A DNA stretch of 64,000 nt from Paremcibacter congregatus (GTDB taxonomy: Bacteria; Pseudomonadota; Alphaproteobacteria; Sphingomonadales; Emcibacteraceae): positions 186,001 to 250,000 of the forward strand of contig NZ_CP041025.1 of the NCBI RefSeq assembly GCF_006385135.1. Reading direction: 5' to 3'. Both the position numbers and the translations under genes were made by a program. Under the pieces are notes generated by a model that was not told the origin of the DNA, did no database searches, and saw only the letters and a program-made list of their open reading frames with translations. Positions 45,761-50,607 of the stretch are shown here, piece by piece. Each line of letters begins with the position of its first letter. Position 1 is the stretch's first letter.

Positions 45761-45836
45761 GGGGCTATAGCTCAGTTGGGAGAGCGCTTCGCTGGCAGCG
45801 AAGAGGTCAGCGGTTCGAACCCGCTTAGCTCCACCA
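45761..45836 (+). tRNA. tRNA-Ala (anticodon GGC)
   Basis: 76 bases with encoded CCA. Acceptor stem GGGGCTA pairs with TAGCTCC (one G-T), D-arm GCTCAGTTGGGAGAGC, anticodon stem CTTCG/CGAAG enclosing CTGGCAG (anticodon GGC), and T-arm GCGG/CCGC around TTCGAAC. It reads GCC and GCU alanine codons. Confidence 0.95.
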
Positions 45837-46010
45837 TTTCGCTCAAGATATAGAGCATGCAGGAAATCCGCGAATATATTAAGTACTTTATATTCCATTT
45901 GTTAGGCAAAGATGCTAAACACAGGTAATGCTGCAACCTCCTAGAGCACAGAAAAAAATATCACAAAAAATAAAAAGTTCTATGCAATACATAATAGGAA
46001 TCTGATTTTA

Positions 46011-46676
46011 ATGAACCTAAAGTTATCACACCTATTAACAATGACTTTTATGTCGTTTTTTGTATATCAGGCAGCCCTTGCGAGCGAGAACGATGCGGTA
46101 GATATTATTCGGACTATTCAGATAGGTGGCCTTTCCTTAAACAGTACACCTGACGATATTGAAGCATTTATCGAAACAAAGCCGTCACTTGAGTGCAAGC
46201 GAATTGACGTGCCGGAACGAAAAAGTAAAATCCCCTCAAGACGATCATCACCACGACAGCAAAGCTGGAATTGTTCGTACTCACATAAAACTTTATCCGA
46301 AGTTTTAAATATCCGTATGTCCGATGGTGTTATCTCTTACCTTAACTATGAGACTGGATATGATAAAACTCAGCTTTTTGAAAAAACCAGATTGTATATT
46401 AGAGGGATACATAAAAAGCTTGAAGCGGCAGGGCTTACTTCTCATCAAAAACATTTAAAAAATTTCATGACGTACGAAGAAAAGGATATACAAGGAGGCT
46501 CTGCGCCTGTTTTTATGCAACACCTTAATGCAAAAAAAACAGTGTCGTGCGACAACATTCCTATTTACTTTCTTATGTCTATGAATGCCAATACGCTGCC
46601 TTCACAAAATATATACAGAGCGGGAATGAAGATAGAACGCAGCCGTAAACCAATACACTGCAAGAATATCGAGTAA
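46011..46676 (+). CDS. hypothetical exported protein, AT-rich
   Basis: 221 aa, not recognised. A signal peptide is visible (MNLKLSHLLTMTFMSFFVYQ then AALA-S). The mature part has a region GGLSLNSTPDDIEAFI similar in style to small secreted proteins with an allosteric-like helix, and three cysteines in the mature chain (near 61, 87 and about 180), plus one near the C-terminus. Base composition is much poorer in GC than adjoining genes, and the gene stands alone between tRNA-Ala and the radical SAM gene, which suggests a transferred or fast-evolving gene. Confidence 0.6.
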   Translation: MNLKLSHLLTMTFMSFFVYQAALASENDAVDIIRTIQIGGLSLNSTPDDIEAFIETKPSLECKRIDVPERKSKIPSRRSSPRQQSWNCSYSHKTLSEVLNIRMSDGVISYLNYETGYDKTQLFEKTRLYIRGIHKKLEAAGLTSHQKHLKNFMTYEEKDIQGGSAPVFMQHLNAKKTVSCDNIPIYFLMSMNANTLPSQNIYRAGMKIERSRKPIHCKNIE

Positions 46677-46889: not shown

Positions 46890-48377
46890 ATGACCAGCGG
46901 CCTCAAATTTATCGCCCATAACGCCCATGATGTGACGGTGGGGGATCAGCGGATATTGTTTCATATCCCGACGACGTCGCTGTTTGATCTGGACGGGGTG
47001 TCGGGCGACGTGCTCGACCTGTTCAAGGAACTGGGCGAGGTCAGCCGCGCCGATGTCGAGGCCCGCTTTGAAGGCCGTCACAGCCCGGATGACATCCTCG
47101 CCGTGGTCGAGGACTTCCTCGAGATGGACATCATCACGGGTGACGGCCCGGATTTCGACAAAAACCTGCGGCCGGATTTTCCGCCGGTCAAGATCGAGAA
47201 TTACCCCTTGAGCACCATCATCCTCAATGTCAACACCGGCTGCAATCTCGGTTGCACCTATTGCTACAAGGAAGACCTCACCACCCCGGCCAAGGGCGAG
47301 CTGATGGGCCTCGATACCGCGAAGAAATCCATCGACCTTTTGCTCAAGGAAGGTGCGAGCCGCGACCGGGTCAATGTGGTCTTTTTCGGCGGCGAGCCGT
47401 TAAGCAACATGCCGCTGATCAAGGGCGCGGTCGCCTATGCCGAGGAACGTTGCGCGGCGCTGGGCAAGAAGGTGGATTTCTCCCTGACCACCAACGCGAC
47501 GCTGCTCACGGAAGACATCATCGATTATCTCAACGCCCATAAATTCGGCATCGCCATCAGCATGGACGGGCCGAAGGCGGTGCATGACAAGAACCGCAAG
47601 ACCATCGGCGGCAAGGGCACCTATGATGTGGTGGCGAAGAAGGCCCGGATGCTGCTGGACCGCTATAGCGCCCGGCCGGTGGGGGCGCGGGTGACGCTGA
47701 CCGCGGGGGTCACGGATGTGGAGGCGATCCACGCCCATCTCAAATATGATCTGGGCTTTGCCGAGGTGGGCTTCGCACCGGTGACCTCGGGTGATATTTC
47801 GCTGTTTAACCTCAGCAATACAGAATTGCACGAGGTGTTCGAGAATATGAAAAGCCTTGGCCTTGCTTACCGCGATGCGGCGCTGCGCGGCGAGAATACC
47901 GGTTTTTCCAACATGCATCAGCTGATGACGGATCTGTATGAGGGCACCAAGAAGGCGCTGCCCTGTGGCGCGGGTATTGGCCTGCTGGCGGTGGATCACG
48001 CGGGCGATCTCAATCTCTGTCACCGTTTCACCGGCTCGGATATTGACACCTATGGCTCGGTGGACACGGGCATCAAGAAGAAGGAGCTCGGCGCCTTTCT
48101 CGAGGGTCGGGCCGACCGGGAGGGCACCTGGTGCGACACCTGCCGGATCCGGAACCTGTGTTCCGGCGGCTGTTATCACGAATCTTACGCGACCTATGAC
48201 GACATCAACAAGCCGACCTACCATTATTGCGACCTGATGCGCGACTGGATCGATTTCGGGATCAGGGTTTACAGTGAGATTCTGCGCGAAAATCCCGGTT
48301 ATTTCGAACGCCATGTCAGCCCGAGAACTTTGCTCAACACCAACCGGACGGTGGGTGCGGCGCAACAGCTGATGTGA
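46890..48377 (+). CDS. QhpD-like radical SAM/SPASM maturase
   Basis: 495 aa. Residues 1-85 resemble a PqqD/RRE-like winged helix for leader-peptide binding. The radical SAM core has the 4Fe-4S motif GCNLGCTYCYKED (Cys118, Cys122, Cys125) and FFGGEP. The C-terminal SPASM domain is complete: Cys359-x12-Gly-x4-Cys377, Cys415-x2-Cys418-x5-Cys424-x3-Cys428 and Cys447, enough for two auxiliary clusters. Phrases CGAGIGLLAV, LCHRFTGSD and LCSGGCYHESY match the quinohemoprotein amine dehydrogenase maturation protein QhpD, which makes intramolecular Cys-to-Asp/Glu thioether bonds. No qhpA, B, C, E or G is in the window, so the substrate here is unknown. Confidence 0.72.
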   Translation: MTSGLKFIAHNAHDVTVGDQRILFHIPTTSLFDLDGVSGDVLDLFKELGEVSRADVEARFEGRHSPDDILAVVEDFLEMDIITGDGPDFDKNLRPDFPPVKIENYPLSTIILNVNTGCNLGCTYCYKEDLTTPAKGELMGLDTAKKSIDLLLKEGASRDRVNVVFFGGEPLSNMPLIKGAVAYAEERCAALGKKVDFSLTTNATLLTEDIIDYLNAHKFGIAISMDGPKAVHDKNRKTIGGKGTYDVVAKKARMLLDRYSARPVGARVTLTAGVTDVEAIHAHLKYDLGFAEVGFAPVTSGDISLFNLSNTELHEVFENMKSLGLAYRDAALRGENTGFSNMHQLMTDLYEGTKKALPCGAGIGLLAVDHAGDLNLCHRFTGSDIDTYGSVDTGIKKKELGAFLEGRADREGTWCDTCRIRNLCSGGCYHESYATYDDINKPTYHYCDLMRDWIDFGIRVYSEILRENPGYFERHVSPRTLLNTNRTVGAAQQLM

Positions 48378-48390
48378 GGAAGGGGCGGCG

Positions 48391-50607
48391 ATGGTGACCG
48401 GATGGGGCGGTAAATTACGCGACATGATCCTGTCTTCGGGCATTGTCTCGCTGGCCATAGTGTTGTTCGTGTTACTTGCCCCGCCGGAAGGGGAGATCGC
48501 GGCGCTTTATCTGGCGCTCCTCACGCTCCTCACCGCGTTCTTGCTGCCGGCCCGCCGGGCGCTTCTGTTGCGCCTGACCTTTTTGATCCTGATGGTGCTC
48601 AGCTTTTGTCTGCTTTATCATCTGGGCCGGGATCATTTCCATTATGCCTATGTCTGGCTCTATAGCGCCCCGGACCTGCCGCTTTATCTCAAGCTCGCCA
48701 ATCTGTGGGGCGGGGAAGAGGGGACGTTGCTGTTTTTGGCTCTGCTGCTGGCGTTCTTTGCGGTGCGGATGGATCGTCAGCCGGGCTGGGCCGGGCCGGG
48801 GGTGATGCTTTTGCTGCTGCCGTTTTTGTTCGGGCTGCTGATCTGGCATCCTTTTCAGGAGACCAGCGCCGCACAACTGGCGACGGTGCCCTATCAGGGC
48901 ATGAACGCCCATCTGACCAAATTCTGGATGGCGATCCATCCGCCACTGATCTTCCTCACCTATCTGTTGCTGCTGGTGCCGTCGGGCGCAGCAGTGGAGG
49001 CTTTGGTGCGCGGCACGGGACCCTGGAAGGTGCTGGCGATCAGTTATGGCCGTAAGGCCTGGGTGGTGATGAGCGCCGGATTGATCAGCGGCATGTGGTG
49101 GGCCTATGAGGATTATTTTTACGGCCAGTTCTGGCACTGGGACCCCGTGCAGACGGCGGCCTTCGTGGTCTGGTGCTTTCTCACCGCCTATCTGCATGGG
49201 CTGCGCAGTTATCATCCGGACAGGGCCCATGCCCGCAGTCTGCCCTTCCTCGGTCTGGTCACGGCGGCGGCGGCGATCGGGTCGATGCTGGTGACCCGCA
49301 ACGGCGAACTGGTCAGTTCCCATCGCTATCTGGGGGAGACGTCAGTTGCGTTGCTGCTGTTCATTTCGGGGGCGTTATTATCTGTCGCGATCGTGGCTTT
49401 GCTTCTGTCCATCCGGCGGCGCTTGGCGCGGGCGGCCCGCCCGGTCCTGATCAGCGAATCCCGCCTGATGATCCATCTGGCGATCTGGGGCTTTGTCGGA
49501 CTTGGCCTGATGGGCTGTTATGTGCTGGGCGAGGCCTATCTGCGGGCGCTGCTTGAGGTGCCCAAGGACAAGCCGCCGATCTTCTTCGCCCTGATTGCCA
49601 ATGTCAGCCCGGCGGATTTTGTTGCCCTTCTTAAAGAACAGCATAGCCGCTGGTCGGTGGATAATTTTACCATGAACCAGATTCTGGTGCCGCTGGTGAT
49701 CGCCGTGGCCCTGATCGGCGGGCATCGCTTTTTGCCGGTGAACCGTCGGGGGATGAAGTGGGGGATCACCCTTGGCGCGGCGGTGGTGAGCGTAGGGCTG
49801 GCATCCTATCTGCAGCCGTTGCAGCATTTTTACGACGGTACGGGGGTGACTTCGGGCGCGACCCGGCGCAATTTCTATCAGCTGAATATGTTGCTTGGTG
49901 CGGTGGTTTATTTTTGCGGCGCGAGCTTGCTGTATGCTTCGCCGATTGGCCTGCGGCGTGGCAAGGAAAAGGCCTATATCACCTATATTGCGCCGGTGGG
50001 ACTGATCCATATGGGGGTGATGATCGGGTTGTTCGCCGCGCTTTGTGCGATGATTCTTGACACTCAGCGGGTGGTGAAAGTGAGTTTCCCGGCGGCGTAT
50101 GACCGGCCCTTGACGATTTCCGACCGATATCAGATTGAACTGCGCCGCCCGAGTGCTCCGACCGCAGCGGCGGGGGCCTATTCGGCCAGCGGCACCGGGG
50201 CGCTAAAAACCGTTACGGATGTGAAATTATATCTGAAAGGCGAAGGCGGCGCGACCATGGTTCGGCAGGGCCAGACCCTGTATCAGGATGACCGGCAGGC
50301 GGTCTCGGGGGTTAGTGGCGCGATCCGGCAATATTGTGAGGCGGCGGACTATCGTTTTGCCCGCGCTTCCCGCGCTGACGACGGCAAGTCGCATATGCTG
50401 AATCCGTTTATCTATCGCGGGCTGGGTTATGACCTGCAGGTCTGGTTGCCGGCGATTGATTACCTGGCGCTGGACGCAGAAAAGACCTCCTCGGCGGAAT
50501 ATAATATTCTGGTCAAGAGATTTCCCTTGATGATCTGGCTGTGGATTGGCCTCGGCTTGTCCCTGCTGGCCGGAATATATTACGCCTGGGTCGTTCCGCG
50601 GCGTTAG
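48391..50607 (+). CDS. CcmF-like haem-handling membrane protein
   Basis: 738 aa with about 14 membrane helices. The CcmF/CcsA family motifs are present in altered form: NLWGGEEGTLLF (106-115), MAIHPPLIFLTY (180-191), a WWD-like haem-binding segment WWAYEDYFYGQFWHWDP (236-252) and RNGELVSSHRY (303-313). The four family histidines align with His183, His269, His311 and His540. Residues about 560-710 form a large soluble domain before a last helix, as in CcmF. CcmF transfers haem to apocytochrome c. Here no ccmA-E, G or H gene is near. It starts 13 bases after the radical SAM gene with its own AAGGGG, so both are likely one operon. Confidence 0.8.
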   Translation: MVTGWGGKLRDMILSSGIVSLAIVLFVLLAPPEGEIAALYLALLTLLTAFLLPARRALLLRLTFLILMVLSFCLLYHLGRDHFHYAYVWLYSAPDLPLYLKLANLWGGEEGTLLFLALLLAFFAVRMDRQPGWAGPGVMLLLLPFLFGLLIWHPFQETSAAQLATVPYQGMNAHLTKFWMAIHPPLIFLTYLLLLVPSGAAVEALVRGTGPWKVLAISYGRKAWVVMSAGLISGMWWAYEDYFYGQFWHWDPVQTAAFVVWCFLTAYLHGLRSYHPDRAHARSLPFLGLVTAAAAIGSMLVTRNGELVSSHRYLGETSVALLLFISGALLSVAIVALLLSIRRRLARAARPVLISESRLMIHLAIWGFVGLGLMGCYVLGEAYLRALLEVPKDKPPIFFALIANVSPADFVALLKEQHSRWSVDNFTMNQILVPLVIAVALIGGHRFLPVNRRGMKWGITLGAAVVSVGLASYLQPLQHFYDGTGVTSGATRRNFYQLNMLLGAVVYFCGASLLYASPIGLRRGKEKAYITYIAPVGLIHMGVMIGLFAALCAMILDTQRVVKVSFPAAYDRPLTISDRYQIELRRPSAPTAAAGAYSASGTGALKTVTDVKLYLKGEGGATMVRQGQTLYQDDRQAVSGVSGAIRQYCEAADYRFARASRADDGKSHMLNPFIYRGLGYDLQVWLPAIDYLALDAEKTSSAEYNILVKRFPLMIWLWIGLGLSLLAGIYYAWVVPRR

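Follow-up and report, generated by a model that had tools for sequence, protein, structure and literature searches.

CcmF is the subunit of CcmFH that attaches haem in System I cytochrome c maturation. Paralogues of CcmF can be encoded in a gene cluster and serve a single enzyme, as reported for NrfE with NrfA and SirE with SirA (PMC6976685), and in E. coli CcmF itself the residues W229, A230 and D243 position haem for attachment (PMC10746174). The qhp operon builds quinohemoprotein amine dehydrogenase (QHNDH), an enzyme with which bacteria degrade amines. As described, it is qhpABCDEFGR, eight genes comprising A to G plus the regulator R, and holds no CcmF-like gene (PMC7876137). In the 64-kb stretch of DNA analysed here (the window), a qhpD gene and a ccmF-like gene stand side by side, very probably as part of a dispersed qhp system and not of an intact operon. 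The QhpD is of a known, ordinary kind in an unusual place, while the CcmF-like component, optional for qhp systems, is apparently undescribed; no paper mentioning both CcmF and amine dehydrogenase was found in the searchable literature, which excludes most subscription papers and all preprints.

As the first-pass annotation had stated, a QhpD-like radical SAM ORF lies 13 nt before an ORF for a CcmF-like membrane protein (Table 1). Both ORFs are intact and on the plus strand, and GGAAGGGG precedes the ATG of the latter (48391). Given the spacing and the shared strand, we infer that qhpD2 and the CcmF-like gene are co-transcribed. The absence of the other qhp genes (A, B, C, E, F and G) from around the pair, also noted at first pass, was confirmed for the entire window. 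There were no convincing remnants of qhpA, B or C flanking the pair, nor was there a candidate substrate gene near it. Just upstream, at 45761-46676, are a tRNA-Ala(ggc) gene and then a 221-aa ORF with a signal-like start, for which we found no family match and no counterpart at the loci of relatives.

QhpD2 matched the QhpD equivalog model TIGR03906 with 745.6 bits, over profile positions 1-466 of 467, where the curated equivalog cut-off is 453 bits. Conservation of the SPASM cysteines among the QhpD proteins compared is complete apart from one ambiguous base. The reaction of the QhpD family is the formation of three Cys-Asp/Glu thioethers in QhpC, and on its sequence QhpD2 is predicted to carry out the same reaction.

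Table 1. Features of the qhpD2-ccmF pair (positions within the window)
Feature	Position	Strand	Basis
qhpD2, radical SAM/SPASM quinohemoprotein amine dehydrogenase maturase, 495 aa	46890..48377	+	TIGR03906; 98.9% nt identity to 3.20-Mb qhpD
Stretch common to both qhpD copies, 98.9% nt identity	46890..48334	+	Tail beyond differs
CX3CX2C motif for radical SAM [4Fe-4S] cluster (C118, C122, C125)	47241..47264	+	Sequence; kept in relatives' QhpD
SPASM-type auxiliary cluster cysteines (C359, C377, C415, C418, C424, C428, C447)	47964..48230	+	Conserved in all QhpD compared
CcmF-like integral membrane haem-handling protein, qhp-associated clade, 738 aa	48391..50607	+	PF01578, 6zmq, tree
P-His1 counterpart H183	48937..48939	+	Invariant, 13 CcmF-like + 8 canonical
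WWD domain, residues 236-254, WWAYEDYFYGQFWHWDPVQ	49096..49152	+	Alignment with canonical CcmF
TM-His1 counterpart H269	49195..49197	+	Invariant
P-His2 counterpart H311	49321..49323	+	Invariant
TM-His2 counterpart H540	50008..50010	+	Invariant

Other qhp loci and the second qhpD copy

The window genome is a single contig of 4,189,011 bp with two qhpC and two qhpD genes. A whole-genome search for qhpA, B and C, suggested in the first-pass annotation, returned counterparts at two loci. Locus 1, at 3.20 Mb, has the order TonB-qhpA-D-C-B, and its QhpA, B and C pass the curated models. Locus 2, at 3.617 Mb, has AraC, TonB, qhpA, C and B and an aldehyde dehydrogenase gene, lacks qhpD, and runs on through LuxR, qhpE, qhpF and qhpG to 3.631 Mb. 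Its order is G-F-E-LuxR-...-AraC-TonB-A-C-B; LuxR and AraC are separated by two extra genes, which encode a metallo-beta-lactamase-type protein and a flavin monooxygenase. Since counterparts of qhpA, B, C, E, F and G, none of them next to qhpD2, are all present at 3.20 and 3.62-3.63 Mb, a complete maturation set exists. The label of orphan given to this QhpD thus fits the window but not the genome. Compared with the described operon, the likeness lies in this full set of counterparts and in a QhpD that passes the curated model; the difference is that the genes are spread over three sites and make up two QHNDH sets. A radical SAM maturase that seems orphaned can therefore belong to a complete system from which it has been displaced, which calls for caution in genome mining.

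These loci also bear on the proposal that the pair is a dedicated module standing alone, for a new cytochrome with no relation to QHNDH, which it would both cross-link and load with haem. A peptide cross-linker adjoining a haem protein with no qhpA, B or C nearby would fit such a module. Against it stand the two QhpC substrates encoded in the genome (both qhpC genes score over the cut-off, neither is beside qhpD2, and both proteins carry the standard core). QhpD2 is moreover the sister of QhpD1, a near-identical copy inside the canonical qhpA-D-C-B cluster of locus 1, the same pair heads a qhp operon in a relative, OB4 (below), and a candidate substrate gene is absent nearby. We consider this reading very improbable.

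The window gene and the qhpD of locus 1 are 98.9% identical over 1445 nt (L005:10196-11640 in the second copy). The match starts exactly at the ATG and ends 43 nt short of the end of the window gene, and the flanks are unrelated. In the tree, QhpD1 and QhpD2 are sisters (support 100/98). Elsewhere in the genome there is indeed a full qhp cluster that includes a QhpD, a finding that the first-pass annotation would have taken against its reading had the window copy proved unrelated; that QhpD2 is unrelated to authentic QhpD was rejected on the nucleotide identity and the sister position. Both recent duplication and gene conversion between older copies fit the similarity, with conversion the likelier because the C-terminal tails of the two proteins differ yet remain alignable. 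Nine of the 16 codon differences fall in the last fifth of qhpD, which looks like a gene-conversion tract. As 15 of the 16 are synonymous (P ~4e-5 for so few amino-acid changes if one copy had drifted neutrally), both copies look functional. Constraint on both is likely, though ongoing conversion could be another way for them to stay similar.

The pair and the CcmF-like gene in other genomes

The Emcibacteraceae bacterium OB4 (L067) carries a single gene run of qhpD, the ccmF-like gene, qhpG, qhpF, qhpE, LuxR, AraC, TonB and qhpA. From G onward, and leaving aside the two extra genes, the order of locus 2 is that of OB4, and what is absent at its head is exactly D and ccmF. The window pair is thus most simply the detached qhpD-ccmF head of the second qhp operon, a relocation that we infer from these gene orders. 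In genus mates the CcmF-like gene occupies the same site, close to FYDLN/aroA and GST/selO and in most cases with no qhpD, which suggests that the move is old in the genus. In two of them (G005 and G013) an A-D-C-B operon lies directly before the CcmF-like gene, and a lone qhpD at this site was seen only in the window genome among the genomes read. Strict adjacency of the two genes, which the first-pass annotation had wanted compared among relatives, is accordingly lost in most genus mates but kept in OB4. Four members of the genus (G006, G008, G010 and G011) have QhpD without the CcmF-like gene, and in three others of the genus, G012 (99% complete) and the incomplete G003 and G014, the CcmF-like gene was present and QhpD was not detected. 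In G017 (L043:4989-10610), qhpD is accompanied by qhpG-F-E in divergent orientation, and none of qhpA, B and C occurs in the 20 kb read there, another separation of maturation from structural qhp genes.

Genomes with one gene and not the other, the majority of genus mates, which have the CcmF-like gene but no qhpD at this site, and the presence of another full qhpD would also agree with a neutral leftover, in which gene conversion has kept QhpD2, a spare copy, similar to its sister, and the CcmF-like gene at this site is tied to QHNDH in some other way or not at all. The excess of synonymous differences between the qhpD copies speaks against this, with the proviso that conversion could mimic it, as do the intact state of both ORFs, the lack of a qhpD in locus 2 itself and the linkage of the CcmF-like gene to qhp genes in other lineages, and we regard a leftover as quite unlikely.

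That linkage was seen across three lineages in which the CcmF-like family was found. Besides the Emcibacteraceae, these are a distant alphaproteobacterium (G137), with A-D-C-B-F-E-ccmF together and G convergent, and, in another class, the congeners G491 and G564, whose order is ccmF-A-D-C-B. The CcmF-like gene therefore touches qhp genes in four arrangements and in two classes of Pseudomonadota. In evenly drawn samples, the CcmF-like carriers all had QhpD, both in the class (2/2, against QhpD in 7/385 overall) and in the phylum (3/3, against 7/398). Few carriers underlie these counts, the window genome is one of them and two of the others belong to one genus, so more weight rests on the adjacency in four arrangements. 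A search for the gene order of G137 elsewhere returned only G137 itself. QhpD was found in 33 plasmid records; the CcmF-like protein had no match in plasmid records or in viral contigs, and none is listed in one annotated Pseudomonas plasmid qhp cluster. The majority of the qhp clusters seen lack the CcmF-like gene, including that of G487, which is of the same genus as G491 and has the same qhp neighbourhood. The gene is thus optional for qhp systems, a further member beyond the eight-gene operon in two classes of Pseudomonadota. We hold it highly probable that both window genes belong to a qhp system.

The CcmF-like protein and its possible role

The CcmF-like protein matched Pfam Cytochrom_C_asm PF01578 with 60 bits (cut-off 29.9) and Thermus CcmF 6zmq with E=8.8e-22, and fell short of the cut-offs of TIGR00353 (91 vs 569 bits) and TIGR03145 (91 vs 927 bits). 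Profile comparison with canonical CcmF gave 99.4% probability over 262 columns, in the N-terminal half only, and the AlphaFold model was weak (mean pLDDT 50). Canonical CcmF was present in 8/8 genomes tested, five of which also have the CcmF-like gene. The two kinds form separate clades (support 100/100), and the window protein is ~21% identical to the canonical CcmF of its own genome.

In an alignment of 13 CcmF-like and eight canonical sequences, the four haem-ligand histidines have counterparts (Table 1), and those of E. coli W229, A230 and D243 are kept throughout the 13 CcmF-like sequences; apart from a single ambiguous residue, this conservation of haem ligands and WWD positions is complete (E. 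coli numbers were transferred through the genome's own canonical CcmF, with an offset of one). The core of the WWD domain is altered family-wide, with GGW replaced by Q/S/T plus F/I/V/L, F/G/Y by H and E by Q, giving the signature WHWDPVQT where the canonical counterpart is W-x-WDPVEN. The protein thus resembles CcmF in its histidines, its W, A and D haem-positioning residues and its many membrane helices, and differs in its low identity, separate clade and signature and in having no ccm genes beside it. Like NrfE and SirE, it is a second CcmF-type protein encoded with the cytochrome enzyme that it presumably serves, but it lies far below the NrfE model cut-offs (91-94 vs 394-927 bits), no NrfF/SirF-like partner was seen with it, and QhpA, the presumed client, has only ordinary CXXCH motifs.

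By analogy with the cluster-encoded NrfE and SirE, we propose that the CcmF-like protein serves QhpA. It would hold haem at its WWD/P-His site, together with a transmembrane haem b, and would help to attach haem covalently to QhpA, the dihaem subunit, with partners (CcmE and CcmH) probably borrowed from the genome's ordinary Ccm system. The explanation that we favour on balance is that the pair is the detached qhpD-ccmF head of a QHNDH operon, with the CcmF-like paralogue assisting haem attachment to QhpA. The earlier suggestion that a distant qhp locus has a haem lyase of its own came close to this; the pair does appear to be a displaced qhp part, and CcmF-like genes turn up repeatedly within qhp operons. 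That the protein is the haem lyase for QhpA, a claim in which both client and catalysis are drawn from its relatives, seems to us evenly balanced. Unusual haem motifs in QhpA were considered as a reason for a dedicated lyase and rejected, as none was found in any genome looked at, all being CXXCH; with ordinary CXXCH and the canonical CcmF kept, such a lyase is not obviously needed. The many qhp systems without a CcmF-like gene and the genus mates with one gene alone also count against it. If the protein is a lyase, the NrfE/SirE pattern would extend to an enzyme whose motifs are plain CXXCH and for which no dedicated lyase would be expected. More tentatively, although we think it rather unlikely, a CcmF-derived membrane haem protein with the WHWDPVQT site could be a ninth QHNDH-biogenesis gene in some lineages, so that haem handling on QhpA would be coupled to the finishing of QhpC's cross-linked quinone cofactor.

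The main rival to a haem lyase for QhpA is a redox role. The CcmF-like protein would then be a qhp component of another kind, a membrane haem-b protein that either hands electrons on from QHNDH in the direction of the quinone pool or takes part in the last oxidation of the CTQ precursor. Such a role would agree with the conserved TM-His1 and TM-His2 counterparts, the family-wide departure of the WWD core from canonical CcmF, a QhpA in need of no special lyase, the lack of a CcmH-like partner beside the CcmF-like gene in the qhp-ccmF loci read, and the fact that donors and acceptors of some CTQ steps are unidentified in the literature (PMC7876137). The residues that position haem for attachment are nevertheless kept, and a purely redox function would have no need of them. 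Further, we know of no described CcmF relative that acts in such a way, and a redox role appears unlikely to us.

Other features of the qhp loci were noted. The loci of G487 (L110:7131-7843) and G491 (L102:8148-11000) have an MFS transporter and qhpA-D-C-B in common and form a natural presence/absence pair for the CcmF-like gene, which in G491 stands between the transporter gene and qhpA. Throughout the genus of the window genome, genes for an aldehyde dehydrogenase and a presumed FIST-type sensory protein are divergent to TonB-qhpA-D-C-B (L005:16056-18842; also L032, L035, L037, L039, L041, L047, L050 and L051), possibly for regulation or downstream metabolism linked to locus 1. Finally, the QhpA signal is of the ordinary Sec type at locus 1 but lipoprotein-like in the QhpA proteins of locus 2 (L006:11079-12704, 3.618 Mb) and OB4 (L067:12769-14340), which begin with LASC|S and LFSC|S, respectively, so that one QHNDH may be membrane-anchored.
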